17,272 bases of DNA. Origin: an uncultured Bacteriovorax sp. (lineage in GTDB: Bacteria; Bdellovibrionota; Bacteriovoracia; Bacteriovoracales; Bacteriovoracaceae). The notes under the pieces are model-generated. The model worked only from the letters and a program-made list of their open reading frames with translations. It did not search any database and was not told the DNA's origin. Made by a program: the position numbers and the translations under genes. The stretch spans positions 1-17,272 of the forward strand of contig CAMLRB010000057.1 in NCBI GenBank assembly GCA_946482295.1, in the 5' to 3' direction. This document shows, in pieces, positions 4,604 through 15,766 of this stretch; position 1 is the stretch's first letter, and each line of letters opens with the position of its first letter.

Positions 4604-5500
4604 CTAGGTTTTCTTGATAAGTTTAGAGATATGACCTTGCTGGAACATTTCAAAAGGGTGAAGTTCACCGTAAAATTCGTTAGAAATCCAACACTCTGAT
4701 TCTTCATCAAAATCAAACCATGGGGAAACACCACAGATCATATTGATCCTATCAACGGTGTCGAGTTTTTTACAAACAGGCCGATGATATTTATTAGTGT
4801 TATACACATAGGCAAAATTTTTCTTCAACTCAAATTCAGCTATGTCGAGATGTTCTCCTTCAGCGCTATTAATGATTTGAATCGCATAATTTGAAGTCGT
4901 TTGTATGGGGATATTCACTCTCAAATTTACAAATACTAATTCATCATTATGCCAGCAATAATCGGGCTTAGTTGATTCATCATAACCGGCAAGTACTGTA
5001 GATACTCTTGAACGAATGAGCGTACGTTGAAAAGAATCCACAACAGTTTTAATGGCACCGTGCTTTGCAAATGGCGTTTTTACTTTAAAGGAATAAGTAT
5101 CGTTATAGGTATTTCTCGGAGTCGAAATTCCTTTATATTGAGAAGCCGATCCATAAGAGAGTTGAGTAGAGCCTAATGTGGCCAAATGCGGATCATCAGA
5201 AATTTTATCAATGGCATCTGGGTTATAAGTAAGCGAAGAAGAAACATAACTTTTAGATATTTTTGTTGAATCTTTATAAGCAAACTCATGGAGACCATAA
5301 AGTTCTATCGCTTCACGGACTGACAGGTGAAGCTGATCTAGATTGAAATCAAAGGGAAGTTCTATATAAGCTGGTATTTTAAAATTATCGAATTTGGCAA
5401 TTTGGTTTTTAATATCACTATTCTGATAAATATAGTGATGTACTACCACATCGGAAGGTATCTGCTTAATCGGAATGATCCACTTCCCTCTAATGGCCAT
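4604..5500 (-). CDS. 2OG-Fe(II) oxygenase, aspartyl/asparaginyl hydroxylase-like, probable RiPP tailoring enzyme
   Basis: 298 residues. The C-terminal half has the double-stranded beta-helix signature of Fe(II)/2-oxoglutarate oxygenases: H184-x-D186 in WHNDE, distal H239 in YNTNKYHRP, and R251 in DRINMI as the likely 2-oxoglutarate ligand. The NLRVNIPI strand (192-199) matches the Asp/Asn beta-hydroxylase pattern. The N-terminal 180 residues are not recognised and may bind substrate. The ATG at 5500 has AGGA just upstream and lies 7 bp after the PqqD-like gene, so it is the last gene of the radical-SAM peptide operon. Inferred job: hydroxylation of a residue in the precursor peptide. The fold call is good; the substrate is inference. 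Free amino-acid hydroxylation is the alternative. Confidence 0.75.
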   Translation of the reverse strand: MAIRGKWIIPIKQIPSDVVVHHYIYQNSDIKNQIAKFDNFKIPAYIELPFDFNLDQLHLSVREAIELYGLHEFAYKDSTKISKSYVSSSLTYNPDAIDKISDDPHLATLGSTQLSYGSASQYKGISTPRNTYNDTYSFKVKTPFAKHGAIKTVVDSFQRTLIRSRVSTVLAGYDESTKPDYCWHNDELVFVNLRVNIPIQTTSNYAIQIINSAEGEHLDIAEFELKKNFAYVYNTNKYHRPVCKKLDTVDRINMICGVSPWFDFDEESECWISNEFYGELHPFEMFQQGHISKLIKKT

Positions 5501-5507
5501 AGAGTTC

Positions 5508-5810
5508 CTATTCGCCTTTAGGCGTTTTAAGAAGATTTAATAAATGATTTTTTTCTAAATCGTGAATTAGATCATTAATTTCTTTGTGAAATTTTCCTTT
5601 TTCTAATTCGTATTCATTTTCAAATTCTTCGATCAAGTTTCTCAATGTTTTTTTACCATCAATTTTGCGACAAAAAAGCGCAGCCAATCCATCAACTACA
5701 TATCCCCTATTAATTTTAGAATTGAAAAGATAATAGGTTTGAAGATTTTCTTTTCGTCCACCTGCGAGTGGTTCAGCAAAAATTTCAGGATAAAGATCTA
5801 ATATTTCCAT
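5508..5810 (-). CDS. PqqD-like RiPP recognition element protein
   Basis: 100-residue stand-alone protein of PqqD type: a short beta-rich N-terminus followed by a winged-helix core (about residues 25-92; FNSKINRGYVVDGLAALF, then LRNLIEEFENEY and a final HDLEKNHLL helix). Such proteins bind the leader of a precursor peptide and present it to radical SAM enzymes. The frame opens at a GTG (5837) inside the upstream gene, but the ATG at 5810 has GAGGT just before it and leaves a 7-bp gap from the previous stop, so I prefer it. It sits between the radical SAM gene and the oxygenase gene, and its likely partner is the 62-residue peptide encoded at 7164-7352. Confidence 0.8.
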   Translation of the reverse strand: MEILDLYPEIFAEPLAGGRKENLQTYYLFNSKINRGYVVDGLAALFCRKIDGKKTLRNLIEEFENEYELEKGKFHKEINDLIHDLEKNHLLNLLKTPKGE

Positions 5811-5817
5811 TACAACC

Positions 5818-7152
5818 TCAAACAGCGCGAAGTACACTCACTGAAGTTACATCGCTTTTTCTAATGGGAGCACCATCAATCATAGTTAAACGAAAATTCG
5901 TTTGTAAGTAAATCGCTAAAGAGAGATATGCCAAGCTCCATGTGAAGTGTTGGTCGCAAGCAGCTTCCCACAATTTATTTTCAAGAAACATACAAGCGCC
6001 TTTGCAAATCTGCACTACTGGACATTGTACACATTCTTTCCGCGTACTCCAATGATAAGCTGTATTCAATTGAACATTATTAAACTGATCTATATGACCT
6101 ATTTTATGTCCGCCCTTTGCTGTCACGTTTTGGCATGTAAGAACATTACCATCAATATCTACTGCGATTGAAGTTGGTTGATCCATACTGCATTTTTGTC
6201 CAACAGTTTCCGCATGACGGGCTTCTAACAAAGAGTCAAAAAAATCGTTGATGAAAACGTCAACCATCCCAACATTAAGATCAAATGGATACTGCTTTAC
6301 CAATTGATCAAAAATTCCATTCAGCAGATCATTTCGCTTAGATTGATCTGAAACATAACTCATTCCTGCTGAATCATAAGGAGTTGCTAAATCATGTGTA
6401 AGTCGTACATTTTTAGGATCTGTACATAACTTAGCGGCAATATATTTTCTTATTTCAAGTAATGAATAATTCTTTGGTGAAATGGTTGCATTGAACGACA
6501 CTAATCGATGCGGTTGCAATAGATTAAAAAGATAAAGAAGATTTTCTCTCTGATGAGGAACATCAAGCGGATCTTTCGCTCGATCTTCAGTAAAAGTAGG
6601 ACCATCATGAGAAATAATAAAAAGCAATTTTAGTTCGAGTGCTCTATCGGCCATTTCTTTAGTAATAATAGAGCCATTCGTAAAAAGTGCTAAACTGATA
6701 TTGGGATATTTTTCACGTAAATATTGAGCCATTTTTTCAACAGCTGCCCAATACAAAAGAGTCTCTCCACCCCAGAATTCTAAATGTACTCCTTCACCCT
6801 TTCCATCTTGACCGCCATCAAACCATGAAGGCATTTTTGTAAGAAAGCCTTCTACTTTATTTAATGTTTCTTGGGCAGTGTCTTTCTGAAAAGCACGTTG
6901 ATTATTTTGACTGCAATAGGTACAAGAATAATTACAAGCAAAACCCATTTGTATTTTAATTTTTCGTAGGGTCTTAACTTTTCCAACTGGCGTACTTGGA
7001 CTTACTTTTAAAACTTGAATTTTTTGGATATGGCTTGAAGGTATGATTTCTTCACCACTATCTTTCCAAGTTAATTTTGAAAGATAAGGGTCATAGAGAG
7101 CAACTCTAGATTGTTCTTCGTTCTGCAGATGAAGATTGTAACATATGCCCAT
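5818..7152 (-). CDS. Radical SAM/SPASM peptide maturase
   Basis: 444 residues. After an N-terminal extension of about 65 residues comes the radical SAM motif CNYSCTYC (Cys73, 77, 80), which holds the SAM-binding 4Fe-4S cluster, and GGE at 128-130. The C-terminal SPASM domain for auxiliary clusters has Cys321, 340, 374, 377, 383, 387 and 399 with the usual spacing (CxxCx5CxxxC at 374-387). Enzymes of this build, next to a PqqD-like protein and a Cys-rich peptide, install thioether or C-C crosslinks on RiPP precursors. It begins 11 bp after the precursor gene, with only a weak GAGAA upstream of its ATG. It is the best candidate for core modification; the bond it makes cannot be told from sequence. 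Confidence 0.88.
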   Translation of the reverse strand: MGICYNLHLQNEEQSRVALYDPYLSKLTWKDSGEEIIPSSHIQKIQVLKVSPSTPVGKVKTLRKIKIQMGFACNYSCTYCSQNNQRAFQKDTAQETLNKVEGFLTKMPSWFDGGQDGKGEGVHLEFWGGETLLYWAAVEKMAQYLREKYPNISLALFTNGSIITKEMADRALELKLLFIISHDGPTFTEDRAKDPLDVPHQRENLLYLFNLLQPHRLVSFNATISPKNYSLLEIRKYIAAKLCTDPKNVRLTHDLATPYDSAGMSYVSDQSKRNDLLNGIFDQLVKQYPFDLNVGMVDVFINDFFDSLLEARHAETVGQKCSMDQPTSIAVDIDGNVLTCQNVTAKGGHKIGHIDQFNNVQLNTAYHWSTRKECVQCPVVQICKGACMFLENKLWEAACDQHFTWSLAYLSLAIYLQTNFRLTMIDGAPIRKSDVTSVSVLRAV

Positions 7153-7163
7153 TTGTTCTCATT

Positions 7164-7352
7164 TTAGTAACAAGGACCACCACATGCACCCCCACAGGCG
7201 CAAGCACCGAAGGCCATGTCTGATTTAATGAGTAGTGAGACAATTTGAACAGCAGTTAGCGGGGTTAAACCTCCAAACCGTGTTTTATCAATGATTAAAC
7301 CCTCTGGCTTAACTTCCGAACTTTTCTTTTTAGTTTCGTCTTGATCACTCAT
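7164..7352 (-). CDS. Cys/Gly-rich precursor peptide (putative RiPP)
   Basis: 62-residue peptide. Residues 1-17 are charged and probably disordered; about 18-45 form a leader with a likely amphipathic segment (TAVQIVSLLIKS); the C-terminus after Phe48 is a compact core, GACACGGACGGPCY. The four Cys are 51, 53, 57 and 61. The core contains ACGG twice in tandem (52-55, 56-59) and ends Pro-Cys-Tyr. It lies immediately before a radical SAM/SPASM gene and a PqqD-like gene, as expected for a RiPP substrate. There is no hydrophobic signal peptide. I recall computationally defined radical-SAM 'ACGX-repeat' peptides, which this resembles, but I could not check. A metal-binding small protein is the alternative. 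Confidence 0.82.
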   Translation of the reverse strand: MSDQDETKKKSSEVKPEGLIIDKTRFGGLTPLTAVQIVSLLIKSDMAFGACACGGACGGPCY

Positions 7353-7375
7353 CTCGACACTCTACTCACTACTAA

Positions 7376-7414
7376 TTTTAAGTATATTATACTTAAAAAA
7401 TTACTAAGAGTTAA
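7376..7414 (-). promoter_or_regulatory. Promoter and palindromic operator candidate for the precursor peptide
   Basis: On the minus strand TTAACT (7414-7409) and a perfect TATAAT (7391-7386) are separated by 17 bp, placing the start near 7379 and giving a 27-nt leader. The -10 box lies inside a perfect palindrome at 7376-7398 (TTTTAAGTATA, one centre base, TATACTTAAAA). A second inverted repeat (TTAATA at 7411-7416, TATTAA at 7421-7426) overlaps the -35. The arrangement suggests a repressor site, though AT-richness raises the chance of symmetry. Two more TATAAT hexamers lie upstream at 7422-7417 and 7442-7437. Confidence 0.55.
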
Positions 7415-7463
7415 TAATTATATTAAGTTTAGTCTAATTATAGTGTATTTCTTAATTTTATAT

Positions 7464-9161
7464 TCAGGCTGAAGAAGACAGTTTATGAAGTGCTTGAAAA
7501 CTATAGATATACTCTTCAAGTGTTTTTACGTTCAACTTTAGAAGTGCTTCCTCTAATGGGCACTGCTCACTCAAGACCATTAAACGGGCAAATTGCTCTT
7601 CCCCCAAGGTATCTAGTAGATAAGCAACGAAGGCTTTAGCCTGTAGGTAGAGTCCATTTGCCTCTGGAAGATTCTTATCTAAATCGATAAGTTGTTTTTT
7701 ACCTGACAGAATTTCTGGCCTTTCAAAAAGATTCAAACTTTGTAGAGATCGCTGGAGAAAAGAGAGGTCTATCTTTTGATCTTGTGTCCATTCGCAAAGC
7801 CCTTCTACAAACCACTGAGGAAGCTTTAATCCTCTTTCTGCAATAAATAGATGTGTCAGTTCGTGTACAAGTGCGGGAGTTAGTTTGGTACCCAAATGAT
7901 GTAGAGTATGACCTGAAGATGTTGTGGCCCTTACCCATTCGGGTAAATCATGTTGGCCCGAGGCAAACCTTAATTCTTCCGGATAACCTGCAATATTTAC
8001 AAAAATTTTATTTTTCAACGGCCAAAGTCTTTTTTCTAAATCTATGATTGTTGCTTGAATTTTTTCAATCATTGGTTCAACTTGTTCGAGTTCGATCATT
8101 GAAATGAGCTCAAGCTTTTCATATTGTTTCAGAAAAACTGGTCTCAATAAAAAATTGCACCAATCGCGGAAAAAATTACAACTAACTGCTGGATCAGCAT
8201 CTGTGCCAATGTGATAATGAACTTGCTCAATGGCAGAACCGAAACATTTTTCTTTTATACTACAACCATCACATTGTTTATTATAAAAATCTCGTGCTTC
8301 AGCTATCGTCGAAGTCCACAATCCTTGCTCATAAAGATTTGTTAAATCTTTTATTTCTCGGTGAATTTTTTTTGTTCCACTCATAAGAGGAAAATAAAAA
8401 GTTCCATCCATATTCACATCAATGGCCAACCTTTTATCAAGTTTAGCAATTTTATTTTTTCCATTTTGTCCGTACTTAACGACTCTTCCCCAGGGACCAC
8501 TTATTGTTACACCTTTTCTTATTCCGTAATAAAAAACTTTCCGATAAAGCTCCATACCCACTTGGTGAGAAATCATATCGAGATTATAAAATTGATCTAG
8601 ATAGATTTTTTTAATACCGTGTTCGGCTGCGATATCTACAATTTCATGAAGGTTAAGATAATTTGAAGGCATCATGTATGAATTTATTTGTGCTGGAGCC
8701 TGATGTTTTTTTATAAGTTCCAAGGCTGGTTTCACCATGTGAAAGGTCCCTTTCCCTTTATGTGTTGGACGGGAAATATTATGAATATCTTCTGATCCAT
8801 CCACACTTACATGTAATTCAACATTATGTTTTTTGAAAAAAAGAATATCTTCTTCTTTTAACAAACTCCCATTTGTATTGATTACCCATTGAAGCTTTAT
8901 ACCATTGCAATTTTGGCCATAGCGAAGAACGCCATCCTTGATGACTTTTTTGTTTGCCATCGTTTCGCCACCATAAATTGAAATCATGGTTTGTTTGTTA
9001 CCCATGAGAGAGGCAACGTTTAAAAATTGATCTACTGCTTGATTGAAAACTTCTTGAGACATAACTCGGTTAGGAAGATTATTTTCTCCGAGCTCGAATA
9101 CATGGCAATTCGGACATTTGAAATTACATAAATTTGAAACATGTATCCTTAACCAATCCAA
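7464..9161 (-). CDS. Radical SAM/SPASM protein fused to a peptidase-MA-like metalloprotease domain
   Basis: 565 residues in two parts. The N-terminal part has CNFKCPNC (Cys12, 16, 19), YGGET (63-67) and a SPASM-like cluster region with Cys297, 300, 306, 328 and 335. From about residue 380 comes a gluzincin-like domain: HELTH (433-437) with the third zinc ligand probably Glu453 in WFVEGLCEW, followed by a helical tail with AKAFVAYLLDTLG as in peptidase MA family proteins. It could both modify and cut the precursor encoded next downstream. The start is a TTG at 9161 with AGGAG 5 nt before it; that Shine-Dalgarno overlaps the stop of the preceding gene, suggesting translational coupling. Both domains keep their key residues. 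The fusion is unusual; its order of action is inference. Confidence 0.85.
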   Translation of the reverse strand: MDWLRIHVSNLCNFKCPNCHVFELGENNLPNRVMSQEVFNQAVDQFLNVASLMGNKQTMISIYGGETMANKKVIKDGVLRYGQNCNGIKLQWVINTNGSLLKEEDILFFKKHNVELHVSVDGSEDIHNISRPTHKGKGTFHMVKPALELIKKHQAPAQINSYMMPSNYLNLHEIVDIAAEHGIKKIYLDQFYNLDMISHQVGMELYRKVFYYGIRKGVTISGPWGRVVKYGQNGKNKIAKLDKRLAIDVNMDGTFYFPLMSGTKKIHREIKDLTNLYEQGLWTSTIAEARDFYNKQCDGCSIKEKCFGSAIEQVHYHIGTDADPAVSCNFFRDWCNFLLRPVFLKQYEKLELISMIELEQVEPMIEKIQATIIDLEKRLWPLKNKIFVNIAGYPEELRFASGQHDLPEWVRATTSSGHTLHHLGTKLTPALVHELTHLFIAERGLKLPQWFVEGLCEWTQDQKIDLSFLQRSLQSLNLFERPEILSGKKQLIDLDKNLPEANGLYLQAKAFVAYLLDTLGEEQFARLMVLSEQCPLEEALLKLNVKTLEEYIYSFQALHKLSSSA

Positions 9162-9169
9162 AAAAACTC

Positions 9170-10228
9170 CTAAAACTCATTTACTAAAACTATCTCTTCA
9201 GCAAATGTTTTGCGTGGATTTGTTTCTTTACTTCCAAAAGTCTTAAACATCTTTACAATTTTTTCAGCTTGAGTAGTTGGCAAATCAATTATTCCAGAAA
9301 AACCAATGAGAGAATTAAAAATATTCTCAGGCATTGGGGCTTCAAGCAAATTGACCTTCCTGAAAGTATTAATAATTTTAAAACGCTCCTCTTCACTTAA
9401 TTTGCCATTTAAATAGATTAAGTTGCAGGGAACATTATAGCTATTAGTATAAGCGATTTTTACTCCAGGATACTTCGTAAACTGATTATTAGTATAACTA
9501 CCTAAAAAAATGAAGTCTACGGAGTTTCCATAGTTCCTCGATACATCGATTACTGCATCTACCCTGCCTGCTAATAGTGCTTTAATCATTGAGTCGCCTG
9601 ATCCATTTAGATGTAGTTCCTTCACTTTAATATTTGAATCAATGAGTAATTGAGTAACTAGAGGACCACCATTCTTAACAATTCTATTAGTAGCTACTTT
9701 TTTTCCTGCCAAATCTCCACCACCAGCAATGGGAGACTTATCAGGTACGACAACACTTACTTTATATTGGCATCTCATTTTTGCTTCACCTGAAGTATAA
9801 ACTTCAAATATTGGAAAGATGTCTATGCCTGCGGATAAAATTTCACCGATTAGTATAGTATCTGAACCTCCAATATCTGCATTCCACTTAGGTAATTTTG
9901 CTACATCTTTTTCATCAACTTCTTCCGCAGAAGTTTTAATCTTGAGCCCTAAACTTTCGAATGTTTTTAGTGAAAAAGTTTTATCAAGGCTGGTCATATC
10001 GACACGTTTTTTAATCGTGTACAACTGATACGAGTAAGTCTTATCTGTATTTGGGGCTGTTGGTTTTGGTTCGGCTGATTTTTCTGGAAGATCTAAGTCG
10101 AGATCAATTTTTGGAGCGTCTGATAGCGTAATGGTTTTAACAGGCGGCTTGGCCTTATTTCTTGTTGAGAAATAAATACCGATCGCAACAACAATAACAA
10201 GACTCGTAATGAGTATAGGTTTTTTCAT
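9170..10228 (-). CDS. Membrane-anchored periplasmic substrate-binding-like protein (PhnD/NMT1 type)
   Basis: 352 residues. An N-terminal membrane segment (4-20, ILITSLVIVVAIGIYF) with no lipobox suggests a signal anchor, followed by a Pro/Lys/Asp-rich linker (22-62) and a type-2 periplasmic-binding fold. Visible marks are GGSDTILIGEI (120-130), the hinge-like DLAGKKVATN (172-181), and a ligand-pocket stretch with GSGDSMIKALLAGRVDAVID (209-228). This resembles phosphonate- or nitrate/taurine-type binding proteins. No ABC permease or ATPase gene accompanies it here. It ends 8 bp before the radical SAM-protease gene, so it belongs to the same transcript. The ATG at 10228 follows GGGGG. Possible roles: sensing, receptor for the mature product, or delivery of a small molecule; none is shown by the sequence. 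Confidence 0.7.
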   Translation of the reverse strand: MKKPILITSLVIVVAIGIYFSTRNKAKPPVKTITLSDAPKIDLDLDLPEKSAEPKPTAPNTDKTYSYQLYTIKKRVDMTSLDKTFSLKTFESLGLKIKTSAEEVDEKDVAKLPKWNADIGGSDTILIGEILSAGIDIFPIFEVYTSGEAKMRCQYKVSVVVPDKSPIAGGGDLAGKKVATNRIVKNGGPLVTQLLIDSNIKVKELHLNGSGDSMIKALLAGRVDAVIDVSRNYGNSVDFIFLGSYTNNQFTKYPGVKIAYTNSYNVPCNLIYLNGKLSEEERFKIINTFRKVNLLEAPMPENIFNSLIGFSGIIDLPTTQAEKIVKMFKTFGSKETNPRKTFAEEIVLVNEF

Positions 10229-10296: not shown

Positions 10297-11112
10297 TTAT
10301 TCGATCTTCCTATAGACAGTGGCTAGAAAAACATCCGGGATGTTTAATGAATTGAAAACGGCTTTAGAATAATCTTCAGATTCAAACTTCTCATATAATT
10401 CAAAAGTTTCTCTGTCGATCCTTTGACAAGTTAACCCGACTTCCAACTCATGATATCTCGAAAGAGAAAAGGATTCTTTGGGAGTGAATTCATTTGAGTT
10501 TTTTAGATCTAAGTAAGCAGCGCCTTTTGAAAGGCCAAGATGGATAATTGTATTATCAGAACAAAACCACTGTGTAGCACCATCAAATAGGGCCCATTCT
10601 CGCATTGATGAAAGCTTTTGCAACTGAGTGGCTGAGATTTTTTGGGGGATTTGACCTAGAACATCCGAAATCATTTGATAAAAACCATTGAGGTAATCTA
10701 AATGTTTGGCGGGATTAAAAGCTGAAAATGTCTCTATATATAAATAACTTTCGCACTCATTCACATTAATTAAAGACTTCAACTGGTTGAGAGAATCTCG
10801 AATTAAATATAGTGGCGAAAGCCATGGATCCATCAGAAGTGTGACAAGAATTTTTTTAGGTTTGAATAAACTTTTGCCTGTTTTAAACTTAAAGAATTTT
10901 TGATTTTTATTAAGACTTAACAAAGTTGCACATTGATGATGAATAATTTCGTTTTCATTTAACTTTTTTTGATAACTACTCCACGCTATTGCAAAAAAAC
11001 CTTTGCGATTAACATCTAATTCGACAGGGGAAGCATACTGACTAAAATAAGAAACCCCACCGTCATCCTGGGAAGCACTCAATGTTGGAAACTCAATTAG
11101 TATTTCGCTCAT
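10297..11112 (-). CDS. Hypothetical protein coupled to a glycosyltransferase
   Basis: 271 residues; I do not recognise the family. No signal peptide or membrane segment is visible. It is rich in aromatic residues and Lys, with segments such as LVTLLMDPWLSPLYLIRDSL and DNTIIHLGLSKGAAYLDL that suggest a globular alpha/beta fold. The frame opens at a TTG (11127), but the ATG at 11112 overlaps the stop of the glycosyltransferase gene as ATGA and has GGAG 8 nt upstream, so this start is preferred. That overlap implies translational coupling and a shared task with the glycosyltransferase. A 68-bp gap follows before the binding-protein gene. Confidence 0.7.
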   Translation of the reverse strand: MSEILIEFPTLSASQDDGGVSYFSQYASPVELDVNRKGFFAIAWSSYQKKLNENEIIHHQCATLLSLNKNQKFFKFKTGKSLFKPKKILVTLLMDPWLSPLYLIRDSLNQLKSLINVNECESYLYIETFSAFNPAKHLDYLNGFYQMISDVLGQIPQKISATQLQKLSSMREWALFDGATQWFCSDNTIIHLGLSKGAAYLDLKNSNEFTPKESFSLSRYHELEVGLTCQRIDRETFELYEKFESEDYSKAVFNSLNIPDVFLATVYRKIE

Positions 11113-12347
11113 GAGTTTTTCTCCCAAAAAGGAGCATAAACTGCTCTATAATTTTCTAAACTCAAACTTGAATCTGCGTGAAAAAATCTTTGAGGACCAC
11201 TGACAGCAAGTTGATTAAAGATTTCCTTAAATCCCTTAAATTTACCAGAAGCCAAAAATACTTCCTTCAATTTTTCCGCAACAGATTCCAGGGAATAATA
11301 ATAACGAACATTTTCCTGTAAGTGACTGCGATTTATTTCGTAAAAACTCTCCGGCATTTCGCCAGAAAATTTAATCTCATAACCCTTAGACAAGACATCA
11401 ACTGTCAAAAAATGGATTTTGAAATTCACAACCTGTGAAAAATCTTTAAAACCTCCCCAAGAGGTAAGAATTAACGGTAGCCCCGTGGCCATTGCCTCAA
11501 GAGGTGCGCATCCAAAATCTTCATCATGAAAGAGACTCAAACTTATAAAAGCATCAGCTGCATTATAAAGACTATTCAATTCTTCTGCTGAGACGCTTTC
11601 CATAAATTTTACATTAGATAAACTATTAGATGAAATAACTTTTGCAAACTGTGACCCAAGAAGCTCAGAAGTTCCAATTGTTGCTCCCTCAAAATCATCT
11701 TCATTCCCAACAATGATCAGTTTTAAATTCGTAAATGATTCATTGATATGATTGAAGTATGAGATTAATGATCCTATATTTTTTTGATTCGCCAGCCTGC
11801 CCGAATAAATGAAAAGCTTTTCATCCTTTAGAATATCCAATTGCATTCGCTTTTTTTCGCGAAGAACTTCTGAGTAAAAAAAAGTTTTTTTATCAAATGA
11901 AAAAGGAACTACTGAGACTTTTCCATTCAGTAAATTTTCAACTACTTTTTTATAGGCCGTTGAGGGAGCAACCCAAGAAACTTCTTTATTAAGAAGAGAG
12001 TCCTCTAAACCTTTCCATCTCTTAATTTGCCTAATAAAATCACCATAGAGATGGAAGACATACTGCGTATTCGATTCTTTAAGAATCTGGAGCAAAAAAT
12101 GAAAGAATTGACTTCTGTAAACAGCAGGATGAGTGATAACTATTGTTCTCGGAGGTGATTTAAGTATTTGCCTGAAAAATTCATTATAATTTTCTTCAAA
12201 CGGAAGTTTAGATTTCGTATCAGGAAGTGAAAAAACTTCACAATCTTTAACCATCTTATAAGATTTAATTAGATTGTTATTAATTGCATTTACGCTTGCA
12301 ATATCCTGAACGCAAGAAGTAATCAAAATCGTTTTTAATGAGTTCAT
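11109..12347 (-). CDS. Glycosyltransferase family 4-like protein
   Basis: 412 residues of GT-B fold. The C-terminal nucleotide-sugar-binding half has YSGRLANQKN (181-190), typical of GT4 enzymes, and the EX7E motif with Glu276 and Glu284 in EDFGCAPLEAMATGLP, followed by TSWGG. The N-terminal acceptor half is divergent. GT4 enzymes transfer sugars from UDP- or GDP-sugars to lipids, polysaccharides, proteins or small molecules; the acceptor is not evident here. No clear Shine-Dalgarno precedes the ATG at 12347. The gene diverges from the DUF1513-like lipoprotein gene across 54 bp. Its coupling to an unknown protein and proximity to the RiPP genes leaves open either envelope glycan synthesis or peptide glycosylation. 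Confidence 0.85.
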   Translation of the reverse strand: MNSLKTILITSCVQDIASVNAINNNLIKSYKMVKDCEVFSLPDTKSKLPFEENYNEFFRQILKSPPRTIVITHPAVYRSQFFHFLLQILKESNTQYVFHLYGDFIRQIKRWKGLEDSLLNKEVSWVAPSTAYKKVVENLLNGKVSVVPFSFDKKTFFYSEVLREKKRMQLDILKDEKLFIYSGRLANQKNIGSLISYFNHINESFTNLKLIIVGNEDDFEGATIGTSELLGSQFAKVISSNSLSNVKFMESVSAEELNSLYNAADAFISLSLFHDEDFGCAPLEAMATGLPLILTSWGGFKDFSQVVNFKIHFLTVDVLSKGYEIKFSGEMPESFYEINRSHLQENVRYYYSLESVAEKLKEVFLASGKFKGFKEIFNQLAVSGPQRFFHADSSLSLENYRAVYAPFWEKNS

Positions 12348-12401
12348 AAGACTATCGTAACAATATATTTATCTCAGTTCAAATTGTGTTAATATGAATC
12401 T
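12348..12401. promoter_or_regulatory. 54-bp divergent intergenic region
   Basis: It must hold promoters for both flanking genes. Plus strand: TAATAT (12390-12395), preceded by TGT, lies so close to the ATG at 12402 that a leaderless transcript is possible. Minus strand: TTGAAC, 17 bp, TACGAT likewise ends a few bases before the ATG at 12347. Neither gene has a clear Shine-Dalgarno. Weak evidence only. Confidence 0.3.
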
Positions 12402-13517
12402 ATGGACAGACGCGATTTTGTTTTAAAATCTCTTGGCTTAACAGGGTTGCTACTACTTAATAGCTGTGCGACTTCTCGTAAGCTTAATTTAAATTCGGAT
12501 ACAAAATTTCTCATTGGATCAGGTAAAGAAAACCAGCTCGCTAAAGTTGGTTATAAAATTTCCACTCCAGTTAAAAGCAGACTGGTACTTTCGCAAATTA
12601 ATCATGACTTAATTGAAATAACCACTCCATGCAAAGCCCATGAAATTATCGTTTCCCCGGTTGATAACAATTTAGTGTTTGCTGCAAGTAAATGGGGGCG
12701 CGAGGCTTACATCGCCGACATTCATAAAAAAGTTGTTACGGGAGAAGTTCGGCTCAAGGATGGGGAATTATTTTATGGACATAGTTTATTCACCCCAGAT
12801 GGAGCCTTCATTCTGGCAACATTGACCCGCGAAGATGATCGCCAAGGCTTCGTTTCGATTAGAGACAGAGTCACTTTAAGAGAGCTCAAAAAAATATCAA
12901 CTTTCGGACAAAACCCACATCAAATATCATGGATTGATCCAGGCAACGTTGTGGCAATCATGAATTCAAATCATGCACAATTTAGCGATACCGATCATGC
13001 ACTATTAACTTATGTTGACATTCACAGCGGCAAATTACTAAAAAAATATTCAACCAGTTTACCGAAATACAGCCATTTCAAAATGGATGAGGGGCTAACA
13101 TCCGCAATTCTTTGTAGAAGCTCTAGCCCGGGCCTTGAAAGACTCTATGAGAAATTGGATTTAAGTACGGGAGAATTATGTCTCTCTCCAAAAGTTTCAC
13201 TTCCAAACGGAATACCAACTGAAAGCCTTAGCCTAATCATTTTAGAAAAACAGAATATTGCGATCATAACCATTATAGGACTCAAGCAAATTGTTGTTTG
13301 GAATTATAAAACAAATTCTCAATTATTTGTTCAGCATACTAAAGACGAACCACATGGTATTGGAAAAGATATCACAGAAAAATTTATCTACGTTACATAT
13401 GCAGGCGAAGATTCGAACTACCTAGAGATTTATAATCTTGAGAGTTTTTTAAAGAGAAAGATGGATGTACAGATGAGTCTGACCACTGGAAATGGAAGTC
13501 ACTTAACTATCATATAG
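12402..13517 (+). CDS. DUF1513-like beta-propeller lipoprotein with Tat-type signal
   Basis: 371 residues. The N-terminus starts MDRRDFVLKSLGLTG, a twin-arginine pattern (RRDFVLK), and continues to a lipobox LLNSC with Cys22, so it is probably exported folded and lipid-anchored. The body resembles DUF1513 proteins (beta-propeller): YGHSLFTPDGAFILAT (about 133-148), QGFVSIRD, then GQNPHQISW and a late EPHGIG. Family members are often found beside imelysin-like iron-regulated proteins, but no such partner lies in this window. The function is unknown. It diverges from the glycosyltransferase gene and its 3' end overlaps the convergent ligase gene by 8 bp; no terminator hairpin is visible between them. 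Confidence 0.78.
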   Translation: MDRRDFVLKSLGLTGLLLLNSCATSRKLNLNSDTKFLIGSGKENQLAKVGYKISTPVKSRLVLSQINHDLIEITTPCKAHEIIVSPVDNNLVFAASKWGREAYIADIHKKVVTGEVRLKDGELFYGHSLFTPDGAFILATLTREDDRQGFVSIRDRVTLRELKKISTFGQNPHQISWIDPGNVVAIMNSNHAQFSDTDHALLTYVDIHSGKLLKKYSTSLPKYSHFKMDEGLTSAILCRSSSPGLERLYEKLDLSTGELCLSPKVSLPNGIPTESLSLIILEKQNIAIITIIGLKQIVVWNYKTNSQLFVQHTKDEPHGIGKDITEKFIYVTYAGEDSNYLEIYNLESFLKRKMDVQMSLTTGNGSHLTII

Positions 13518-14730
13518 TTCTTTTTTTCTTTAATTCAACTTCAGCAATGGGGTCATAAAACTCAATGTCTGCCGGGACCTTGAATCTATCGAGTTTATTC
13601 ATACAAAATTCTTTTAGCTTAATAATAAATTCTTCATTTCTATTTTCATGTTTAACAAATATCCGAGCTGCAACAATTTGATTTGTTAGAAGAAAATCCT
13701 TTCCAAAAACTTTAGCACTTAGGACGCCAGGAAAACTCATTAGTACATCTTCTACTTCGAATGGTGAAACTTTTTCACCGCCGACAATAATCCAGTCTGA
13801 TTCACGCCCAAGAATAACAAAGGCATCATCCTGTTTTTTTACTCGATCTCCAGTTGAATACCATTCTTCTAATGAGAATGGATAATTAAGATACCCCTTG
13901 AAAGATTCTGGCTGTTTTATTTGCAGAACATTATTTTTAACACGTAGACTATTCTCCATATTTTTAAACGTTAAAAAAGCCGATGAGGAACTAAGCGATT
14001 TCAATCCCAATATACCTGTCTCCGTCATTCCATAAGTTTGATAAAGTGGAACAGATGGGAAATCTAAAGGCCACCTATCTAGTACAAATTGAGAGATAGG
14101 TTCAGTACCAAAAGTCACAAGCTTCAAACTACTCAGATCGTATTTTAAAAATTCTTTTGAAGCCAACAACATTGCTAAAAAGCTTGATGTAGAAGAAAAC
14201 AAAGTGATTGTTTCCTTTTCAATGAGATGACAAATAGATTCTGGATCGCGTTTTGCCACACAAACGCCTGTCCCGCCTGAGGATAACAACTGCAAAAGAG
14301 TATTAACTCCACCAATGTGATCAAACTTCATAAAGAGAATTGACTTATATTTCTTTTTAGGAATTTTTAATTGTGAAATAAATTGTTCAAGATTATGGAG
14401 TGCTGCTTTTTCTATACCAGTACTTCCACTTGTGAATAAAACCAAACCGCTACCTTTTTCATTTTTCATGGCCTGAATTAATTCATTTTTTGTCTTTATG
14501 TTTGTATTGCTGATTGAAAGAGAGCTATTTGTTTCAAGAATAAATTCACATTCTGCTACTTTTATCCTTTCCTCATTCATTTGTCCTAATGGAACTACAA
14601 TACATTTTTTTCTCATGCACGCTAAAAAACATGAGATAGAATTAATATTAAAATCTCCAATGATCGCGACCACACTACCATCTGGGATTTGCTTTAATTT
14701 TTCCAAAGATTCATCAATCTTTATGTCCAA
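13510..14730 (-). CDS. AMP-forming acyl ligase (ANL superfamily), start probably further upstream
   Basis: Adenylates a carboxylic acid and loads it on a thiol, here probably the carrier protein encoded upstream. Motifs, numbered from the TTG at 14730: P-loop LFTSGSTG (98-105), YQTYGMTETG (230-239), YSTGD (291-295), GRESDWIIVGGEKVSP (308-323). The C-terminus ends in a Lys-rich VELKKKRTI, where the catalytic Lys should lie. The interval starts at TTG 14730, but the same frame upstream reads NIAIIEGHESITYERLD, a normal ANL N-terminus. No ATG, GTG or TTG occurs between the in-frame stop (14847-14845) and 14730, so initiation may use CTG at 14793 or ATT at 14799. It follows the SDR gene directly. 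DltA-like ligases are the nearest functional analogy; the substrate is unknown. Confidence 0.85.
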   Translation of the reverse strand: MDIKIDESLEKLKQIPDGSVVAIIGDFNINSISCFLACMRKKCIVVPLGQMNEERIKVAECEFILETNSSLSISNTNIKTKNELIQAMKNEKGSGLVLFTSGSTGIEKAALHNLEQFISQLKIPKKKYKSILFMKFDHIGGVNTLLQLLSSGGTGVCVAKRDPESICHLIEKETITLFSSTSSFLAMLLASKEFLKYDLSSLKLVTFGTEPISQFVLDRWPLDFPSVPLYQTYGMTETGILGLKSLSSSSAFLTFKNMENSLRVKNNVLQIKQPESFKGYLNYPFSLEEWYSTGDRVKKQDDAFVILGRESDWIIVGGEKVSPFEVEDVLMSFPGVLSAKVFGKDFLLTNQIVAARIFVKHENRNEEFIIKLKEFCMNKLDRFKVPADIEFYDPIAEVELKKKRTI

Positions 14731-14798
14731 TCGCTCATAAGTGATAGACTCATGCCCTTCAATGATTGCAATATTCTTTGAAAATTTTCGCAGGTTAA

Positions 14799-15476
14799 TT
14801 AAACACCACCAAAGAAAAAGTTCTGATTCGTAATTTTTTGGCTTTTAGCAGAGATAATGAAATCAAAAACGTGCTTCAAATCTGTTTCGTCCAAGTGATC
14901 GCGAACAATAAGTTGGTCATGTATTTTATCTAACTGCTCGGTTGTTAAACCTTGTATCAACTGTGTATTAACTAGTGAAAGCCCAACGTTATTTACAGTG
15001 ATACCGAATGGGTAAAGCTCCTTCGCCCAAATGGTTGTCATTTTTTCAAGAGCTGCTTTTGTCAGCAGATATTGTACTTCGCCGGTGATATTGAGCTTCG
15101 TTCCAATTGTCGTTATGTTTATAATTCGGCCAAATTTTCGTTCAATCATCCCTTTTGCTATTTCTTGGGTGAGCAAATAAGGCGCTTTAATATTTGTTTG
15201 AATTGCTACATCTAAATTATCTTCAGTTGATAGTAAGAAGGGATTTATACGCGCAATCGCAGCATTGTTTATAAAAACATCTACACCAGGTAATGTTTCT
15301 ATTAATTTTTTTAACTGAGAACTATCGGTGAGATCACATTTAAAATGCTTATATTTTATATCATTAAATTCTTTATCATTTCTTGAAACTCCAAAAACAT
15401 CATGTCCTTCTGATAGAAAGAGACGTGTCAACATTTCTCCTACCCCACGAGAAGTTCCTGTAATTAAAATTTTCAT
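14799..15476 (-). CDS. Short-chain dehydrogenase/reductase (SDR)
   Basis: 225-residue classical SDR, a Rossmann NAD(P)H oxidoreductase. Visible motifs: TGTSRGVG (6-13) for cofactor binding, NNAA (70-73), Asn95, Thr122/123 where the usual catalytic Ser sits, and YLLTK giving Tyr136 and Lys140. CDLT (47-50) is the usual Asp near the adenine. The start ATG overlaps the stop of the carrier-protein gene by 4 bases (ATGA), and its stop lies against the presumed start of the ligase gene, so the three are co-translated. Inferred role: reduction or oxidation of an acyl group held on the carrier protein, FabG-like. Action on a free sugar or alcohol is the alternative. Confidence 0.88.
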   Translation of the reverse strand: MKILITGTSRGVGEMLTRLFLSEGHDVFGVSRNDKEFNDIKYKHFKCDLTDSSQLKKLIETLPGVDVFINNAAIARINPFLLSTEDNLDVAIQTNIKAPYLLTQEIAKGMIERKFGRIINITTIGTKLNITGEVQYLLTKAALEKMTTIWAKELYPFGITVNNVGLSLVNTQLIQGLTTEQLDKIHDQLIVRDHLDETDLKHVFDFIISAKSQKITNQNFFFGGV

Positions 15477-15766
15477 TTCATCTTTTCCTCAATGAATTCT
15501 GCTAAAGTACCAACAGTTCTAAAAGGACTTTGAGTTGCGCTCATTGCTTTGGAACTGACTAGACTAATTTTAAGTGCACTCTTTGATTTAATCTTTTTTT
15601 CGAGATGGACAATAAGATGTACTAAACCAATACTATCCAGAAATCCTGAACGGCCAAACAATGCTGTTTCTTCATCAATTTTTAAATGTGTGTTAATTTT
15701 TAAAAAACTTCGATTGGCCTCTAAAAACTCCATAATCCAAATTGTGATTTCTGAACTTGTTAACAC
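15473..15766 (-). CDS. Acyl/peptidyl carrier protein
   Basis: 97 residues with the four-helix carrier fold. GFLDSIGLVHLIVHLE (41-56) contains the DS[IL] phosphopantetheine site, with Ser45 as the attachment residue. It is longer than a typical ACP, with an extra Lys/Ser-rich stretch at about 58-80, which also makes the last helix region atypical. The GTG start at 15766 has GAGGGAG 4 nt upstream. It is first in the carrier > SDR > ligase operon, and the ligase is the likely loader. By analogy with DltC it may carry the acyl group to the membrane acyltransferase encoded from the right edge of the window. Confidence 0.85.
   Translation of the reverse strand: MLTSSEITIWIMEFLEANRSFLKINTHLKIDEETALFGRSGFLDSIGLVHLIVHLEKKIKSKSALKISLVSSKAMSATQSPFRTVGTLAEFIEEKMK

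Follow-up and report, generated by a model that had tools for sequence, protein, structure and literature searches.

The 17,272-nt stretch of DNA analysed here in full (the window; contig CAMLRB010000057.1 of an uncultured Bacteriovorax sp.) carries a run of eight co-oriented genes on its minus strand, from 12347 to 4604 as judged by open reading frame (ORF) coordinates and library scans. The run encodes a short Cys-ended peptide together with two radical S-adenosylmethionine (SAM) proteins, a PqqD-like protein and a 2-oxoglutarate (2OG)-Fe(II) oxygenase. We regard the locus as probably a maturation operon of the ribosomally synthesized and post-translationally modified peptide (RiPP) type in a Bacteriovoracaceae-like bacterium, with the division of labor among its enzymes that is set out below. 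The host is related to bacterial predators, and the gene set seems to rework a Cys-ended peptide tail. Its SPASM-domain maturase represents, on the cellular side, a family that in phages is associated with tail-type proteins carrying Cys-X-Cys tails; given this link, the common substrate of the family is probably a flexible, Cys-bearing C-terminus. The original prediction for this DNA had proposed a possibly undescribed radical SAM RiPP locus; a locus of this type was upheld, whereas tandem ACGG units as its defining feature and a single obligatory pathway were not.

An alignment of six precursors, the window's and the first five detected, revealed a conserved FG...P-[LM]-T-A-x-Q-I block in the leader and a core that varied in length from GACACACACGGPCY down to AGACY. 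The middle was variable, and the final two residues were Cys-Tyr in all six sequences. A short precursor, a conserved leader, a variable core and modifying enzymes encoded alongside are together the general hallmarks of a RiPP system. No Pfam or NCBIfam family matched the precursor, and the gene stands above chance; a counterpart is encoded by 10 of the 129 genomes examined from the order and by one oligoflexian genome. Among 1806 small ORFs from 17 bacterial stretches (window included), six had at least four Cys in the last 15 residues, and four of these were precursors. A profile search returned 46 precursor protein clusters including that of the window, all 46 ending in CY, a count that is partly circular since the profile was built on CY-ended sequences; the fairer test of the C-terminus is the same profile run against whole genomes. 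Two ACGG units are indeed present in the window's core GACACGGACGGPCY, as described originally, but tandem units do not define the family: among relatives they vary down to none while the leader stays conserved, and 24 of the 46 proteins contain a single Cys.

The distribution of the genes amounts to a natural experiment on what each enzyme does: core Cys is present or absent together with the radical SAM proteins, whereas the terminal Tyr accompanies the oxygenase. In the 129 genomes of the order the oxygenase was detected in 11, the SPASM enzyme in seven and the radical SAM-HExxH fusion in six. All ten precursor-bearing genomes had the oxygenase; the eleventh oxygenase genome (G031) gave a weak match (E = 2.2e-28) set among other genes, with no precursor. 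A core Cys occurred in all seven genomes with the SPASM enzyme and in none of the three precursor genomes lacking it (Fisher p = 0.008, 1 in 120, a value that ignores kinship among genomes that are not independent). In these three of the ten (G008, G011, and G014) neither the SPASM enzyme (threshold E 1e-30) nor the fusion (E 1e-40) had a match, so that an obligatory pathway with all enzymes acting on one peptide does not hold. Their Cys-free precursors end in SSYGGY or SSYGGGY and thus keep the C-terminal Tyr, along with PqqD, oxygenase and glycosyltransferase; all three operons run on one strand in the order precursor, PqqD, oxygenase, glycosyltransferase, a protein of no recognized type, ABC permease and ABC ATPase. 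As Cys tracks the SPASM enzyme while the Cys-free operons keep the oxygenase, the sequences indicate that, most likely, the SPASM enzyme targets the core Cys and the oxygenase a different site. The radical SAM steps, absent from the Cys-free operons, would be an add-on tied to Cys. The terminal Tyr is common to all precursor partners of the oxygenase and is thus its candidate target. This idea also fits genome G350, called oligoflexian here after the source name of protein P0099, which is identical to the SPASM ORF of its locus (L017): no oxygenase was found there at E 0.001, and its Cys-rich precursor ends in Cys-Trp. Across 368 genomes of the phylum the precursor was present in all eight that bear the SPASM enzyme. 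Matches of the precursor profile in three other genomes of the phylum search (G173, G243, and G337; E = 0.0028–0.007) were treated as chance, and no small ORF of at least 40 aa was listed at the G243 site.

The SPASM enzyme has the CX3CX2C motif at 73/77/80 and, as originally claimed, all seven auxiliary Cys (321, 340, 374, 377, 383, 387, and 399), invariant in the eight sequences aligned, window included. A TIGR04085 score of 35.2 bits (cut-off 27) identifies it as a SPASM-domain radical SAM protein, and the PHROG 1802 profile covers residues 48–419 of 444 at E = 3.8e-52, which places it in that family. In the seven closest loci of the genome collection, five labeled Bacteriovorax or Bacteriovoracaceae and two "Proteobacteria bacterium", this enzyme is 57–71% identical to that of the window; a Nanoarchaeota match (L008, 24% identity) was excluded from later counts. 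For both radical SAM proteins the PapB model (NF047865) ranked first in NCBIfam, with 69 bits for the SPASM enzyme and 87.5 for the fusion against a cut-off of 340. Among the matches listed, neither protein reached the cut-off of any specific NCBIfam maturase, in agreement with the possibly undescribed locus proposed at first.

The fusion protein has CX3CX2C at 12/16/19, HELTH at 433–437 and E453, and the H, E and H of HELTH as well as E453 are invariant in five aligned sequences, window included. Its score with Peptidase_MA_2 (PF13485), 15.5 bits, lies below the cut-off of 32.4 for Peptidase MA membership. Both motifs of the proposed radical SAM-protease fusion are thus found in the window, but the arrangement is not universal: the oligoflexian locus encodes the two parts in separate genes, the radical SAM part with 39% identity across 355 residues and the peptidase part with 28% across 184. 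A paralogue in G003 (L054 6880–8529) has lost the radical SAM Cys motif and kept HELTH; it shares a cluster with a second, six-Cys precursor of that genome. The PqqD-like protein scores above the PF05402 gathering score of 23.4, and at 21.5 bits with the PQQ_PqqD model of NCBIfam (cut-off 46). In the oxygenase H184, D186, H239, and R251 are invariant in 85 of 85 sequences. A structure predicted from these 85 sequences, which replaced an earlier, discarded model from six (predicted local distance difference test score 43), shows the double-stranded beta-helix with HxD...H expected of the 2OG-Fe(II) oxygenase fold. The predicted fold agrees with that of AspH; the protein had no match to the AspH family PF05118 (gathering score 22.6) at E 0.1, and solved structures included no close sequence relative (best E 0.033).

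Gene content was compared over 13 loci sets (one from the window, eleven from ten genomes of the order, G003 contributing two, and one from G350), all loci being cut at ~10 kb. Relatives of the glycosyltransferase were present in 13 (the one in G350 being no closer than more remote paralogues are), PqqD in 12, the oxygenase in 11, the SPASM enzyme in nine, a radical SAM domain in nine (one degenerate), the peptidase domain in nine and the family-less protein encoded at 10297..11127 in eight (at least 98 bits, window included); some of these loci served as seeds for the gene-set profiles, and their own matches are therefore built in. Less frequent were a transporter pair, by Pfam an ABC-2 permease and an ABC ATPase (five), a PF05118-type second oxygenase (four), an HprK-like protein, named by eye and matching nothing in Pfam or NCBIfam (three), and DUF1513 (three). 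In G002 the gene set is split over two places on one contig. The glycosyltransferase and ABC-2 genes make a surface glycopeptide the best-fitting role for the product, ahead of a cofactor or a secreted peptide. A stronger version, compatible with the maturation operon proposed here, would have a surface glycopeptide or polysaccharide primer whose terminal Tyr, or a Ser, bears the glycan, with the ABC-2 system as exporter and the radical SAM steps as later embellishments. The glycosyltransferase in every loci set and further glycosyltransferase genes around point this way, as do the ABC-2 genes, which in the three Cys-free operons form one unbroken run with the precursor; but the pair is unseen in the window and seven other loci sets within their ~10-kb limits, and we hold this version as possible rather than likely. 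Around the operons of L051, L052, and L053 are more genes of glycosyltransferase-like type and others that by eye resemble twitch-type radical SAM genes, surroundings that suggest a larger polysaccharide region.

For the RiPP-type operon we propose the following mechanism. The PqqD-like protein would bind the conserved leader and present the short core. The SPASM enzyme would modify the core Cys next to the C-terminus, most likely with thioether links, and the oxygenase would not depend on Cys and would most plausibly hydroxylate the C-terminal Tyr. The second radical SAM domain could make a further change, one restricted to cores that contain Cys, and its HExxH partner could remove the leader. 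With the glycosyltransferase and, in several relatives, the ABC-2 type transporter, the product would probably be glycosylated and exported. Co-occurrence, conservation and motifs were observed and the oxygenase fold was predicted; from these we infer the reactions.

Several observations weigh against this proposal. The ten precursor genomes are few and related, and the Cys correlation may represent one or two events. The single Cys of 24 of the 46 precursors argues against a multi-staple product as a general outcome. Hydroxylation of Tyr builds on shared presence and on one genome without the oxygenase whose precursor ends in Trp. In G018 (2.6 Mb, perhaps incomplete) the SPASM enzyme, oxygenase and precursor were detected and the fusion and PqqD were not; the Pfam PqqD model matches five of the eight SPASM-bearing genomes, with two added by home-made profiles. 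The second cluster of G003 has a precursor without an oxygenase or SPASM gene of its own, the ABC-2 pair was not seen in the window, and the three genomes without the fusion would need another means of leader removal.

The C-terminal Cys-Tyr could instead be the source of a small redox cofactor or signal, as in mycofactocin, with the SPASM enzyme joining or decarboxylating the residues, the peptidase freeing a dipeptide-sized core and the glycosyltransferase glycosylating it. The CY end of all 46 precursor proteins (with the circularity given above), the smallest cores, AGACY and AGPCY, and the company of PqqD, peptidase and glycosyltransferase agree with such a scheme. We nevertheless consider it unlikely: Cys-free members end in YGGY or YGGGY and have no radical SAM enzyme, long Cys-rich cores would be wasted, and no dehydrogenase was recognized among the eight genes with Pfam and NCBIfam.

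Profile searches with the maturase uncovered a large outer branch of the family, ~40% identical to the window's SPASM enzyme. In IMG/VR, relatives at E 0.001 (tblastn) were found in at least 553 of 600 candidate stretches, the weaker of which may be other radical SAM proteins. The best 80 of these stretches (L058–L137, not dereplicated, 40–70% identical to the outer-branch query) were used as viral loci. We searched them for CxCxCxC anywhere in an ORF of at least 60 aa ending no more than 4 kb upstream on the same strand. Such an ORF was present in 55 of the 59 loci whose upstream sequence extends for at least 3.5 kb and in 6 of the 21 with less; among the misses (L063, L107, L110, and L133), L107 has a repeat protein farther upstream and L110 a shorter repeat. 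CxCxCxC ORFs numbered 67 in 264 kb of upstream zone vs. seven in 1982 strand-kb elsewhere, and the Cys repeat was present in all nine phage loci inspected singly, L064 and L079 among them. In the reverse direction, 80 of 98 reported stretches were examined, giving 77 frames with CNCNCNCNC, and a SPASM gene was sought up to 6 kb downstream. It was found for 32 of 33 C-terminal CNCNCNCNC tails in ORFs of at least 70 aa with at least 4 kb downstream, the miss being L140, as well as for 10 of 22 with less than 4 kb and 1 of 22 short or non-terminal frames. The tie between PHROG 1802 and the Cys repeat thus holds in both search directions and offers an initial candidate for the substrate of a phage family whose PHROGs category is simply "other". 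The residues between the repeat Cys were, most frequent first, Asn (193), Ala (64), and Asp (20). Comparison of four repeat proteins with PHROGs gave tail-fiber families for L072, a family without assigned function for L134 and no match for the other two. The original prediction expected a conserved small Cys/Gly peptide near every homologous maturase; this is true of the eight SPASM-bearing cellular genomes of the phylum, but by the letter it fails in the phage branch, whose neighbors are larger or smaller Cys-repeat proteins and no small Cys/Gly peptide.

In an unrooted tree of 116 sequences, one branch (support 1.0) splits all 62 phage-contig sequences from all nine cellular ones. A plasmid search with a phage-type SPASM protein gave no match, and a phage collection yielded four records, two of them for JWF, one for phage 2-1 and one, 24% identical, that lacks annotation. 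In the Achromobacter phages JWF and 2-1 the repeat stands directly before a Hint-type domain (in JWF, Pfam Hom_end_hint, 47.5 bits, cut-off 32.1), followed by one more gene and then the radical SAM gene. Because the repeat immediately precedes this domain, Hint self-cleavage would put the Cys repeat at a new C-terminus. A PF13759 2OG-Fe(II) oxygenase was detected in 26 of 50 phage contigs searched (E 0.001, any distance; 19 over cut-off); an iterated home-made profile, which may drift, placed an oxygenase within 7 kb in 52 of the 80 loci, and the Pfam figure is the safer one. A second radical SAM gene was found in 10 of the 80 with a home-made profile. A two-enzyme system common to phages and the window was rejected, because this second protein is not clearly related to the fusion (BLAST E = 0.004, one pair compared). 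A further protein of unknown family lies within 5 kb in 60 of the 80 loci (home-made profile), and in L105 a DctP-type solute-binding protein gene (11797–12744; PF03480, E = 1.2e-42) is located downstream of the radical SAM gene.

We give about equal weight for and against a single maturase family with two uses. One would be a leader-guided, probably glycosylated surface peptide in Bacteriovoracaceae-like bacteria; the other would be the Cys-X-Cys tails of phage tail-fiber-type proteins, producing virions with radical SAM staples at tips that maybe touch the host. Were this correct, phage tails would have a post-translational modification system of a kind that we did not find in the literature searched.

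In a different chemistry, the SPASM protein would turn Cys into formylglycine, as anaerobic sulfatase maturases do, rather than form thioethers. The sulfatase-maturase model and PDB 4k37 are among its matches, a single Cys would suffice, and the annotation of the phage JWF copy reads sulfatase-maturating enzyme. Yet the model of the thioether enzyme PapB gives the better score (69 vs. 48.8 bits, both far below cut-off), and the sulfatase motif CxPxR was found in none of the 46 precursors, so that we judge formylglycine improbable, somewhat more so than the cofactor. It is more improbable still, to the point of being remote, that the peptide is a plain Cys-rich metal-binding peptide with the enzymes acting elsewhere: runs like CACACGGPCY could bind metal and a DUF1513 gene adjoins in 3 of 13 loci sets, but single-Cys and Cys-free members share the leader and stand beside PqqD, and precursor and enzymes are co-inherited.

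Every gene named in the original prediction was found at its coordinates on the minus strand (Table 1). Of the six contiguous elements described there, the co-oriented run was confirmed and the count was not, five being named there. The extent of 4604..9161 proved too short, as it left out the three upstream genes of the same run. From glycosyltransferase to oxygenase the intergenic distances are −19, 68, 8, 111, 11, 7, and 7 bp, the first being a 19-bp overlap of the glycosyltransferase with the family-less gene; the short gaps of 7–11 bp apart from the region before the precursor were therefore correctly described. These values take the PqqD-like gene from ATG 5810, while the longer frame from GTG 5837 would overlap the SPASM gene by 20 bp. 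The sigma-70-like match before the precursor (10/12) is one of the two best on the minus strand, and such matches are not enriched in the region (31 vs. a shuffle mean of 28.7). The product of the solute-binding-protein-like gene, taken to be a membrane protein, has an N-terminal hydrophobic stretch by eye, with relatives above 480 bits in two other loci sets and weaker ones in four. Divergent from the operon, a DUF1513 gene lies on the plus strand (12402–13517), and its relatives adjoin the oxygenase in L005 and L007. Upstream, 13510–15766 contains AMP-ligase, dehydrogenase-like and carrier-protein-like genes (the last two by eye); an AMP-ligase relative is also found near the Cys-free operon of L053.

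Table 1. Genes of the operon and the gap before the precursor, in order of transcription.
Feature	Coordinates	Strand	Remarks
GT4-type glycosyltransferase	11109..12347	−	PF00534, 78.2 bits
Protein without known family	10297..11127	−	No Pfam match; kept with the operon in relatives
Solute-binding-protein-like gene	9170..10228	−	PF09084, 27.7 bits (cut-off 20.5)
Radical SAM domain (~residues 1–345) fused to HExxH peptidase domain (~346–565)	7464..9161	−	PF04055, 44.8 bits
Gap before precursor, 111 bp, with promoter-like match	7353..7463	−	Match at 7414–7386
Precursor peptide, 62 aa; leader with FGGLTPLTAVQIVSLL, core end GACACGGACGGPCY	7164..7352	−	
SPASM radical SAM enzyme, 444 aa, PHROG 1802 family	5818..7152	−	PF04055, 37 bits
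PqqD-like protein, presumed precursor-recognition element	5508..5810	−	PF05402, 28.6 bits
2OG-Fe(II) oxygenase, 298 aa, predicted AspH-like fold	4604..5500	−	

Radical SAM genes have been reported in marine phages (PMC7150976, PMC5332604) and RiPP clusters in Bdellovibrionota (PMC8067016); the accessible portions of these three papers mention neither this operon nor the Cys-repeat link. In the literature searched, which included few subscription journals, neither the operon nor an association of Cys-repeat tails with a radical SAM gene came up.

Among known systems, the window oxygenase differs from the AspH family, besides lacking the PF05118 match, in that the cores share no Asp or Asn. The ACGX system (TIGR04340) has a name that refers to ACG repeats and a SPASM-type enzyme, but the repeats are dispensable in the window's family. 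Its model was absent among the best 25 NCBIfam matches of either window enzyme (down to 23.6 and 39.7 bits) and was matched only by the oligoflexian radical SAM protein, with 39 bits vs. 400. Mycofactocin and pyrroloquinoline quinone share with our locus a SPASM enzyme, a PqqD-like partner and a peptidase and glycosyltransferase around a short, aromatic-ended precursor. The mycofactocin precursor ends in Val-Tyr, whereas here the core ends in Cys-Tyr and an extra oxygenase and a second radical SAM domain are present; no mycofactocin model was among the best 25 of 42 NCBIfam matches of the SPASM enzyme. PapB and other SPASM RiPP maturases also have Cys in the substrate. PapB, the best NCBIfam match though far from its cut-off, forms thioethers and needs Asp or Glu after the Cys, while neither residue follows a core Cys in the 46 precursors. 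The PHROG 1802 proteins of JWF, 2-1 and the IMG/VR contigs belong to the same enzyme family and have substrate candidates with alternating Cys mostly near the C-terminus. Their loci differ in having tail-type candidates with Cys-Asn or Cys-Ala repeats and another oxygenase family (PF13759), and no PqqD-like gene was noticed there, no dedicated search having been made. The operon adds to RiPP maturation, and the phage link could make the locus more than a variant. If the chemistry is confirmed, it would offer a way to equip peptides and virions with modified C-terminal tails, which may be cross-linked, and the comparison suggests that phage and cell enzymes share a way of modifying protein tails.

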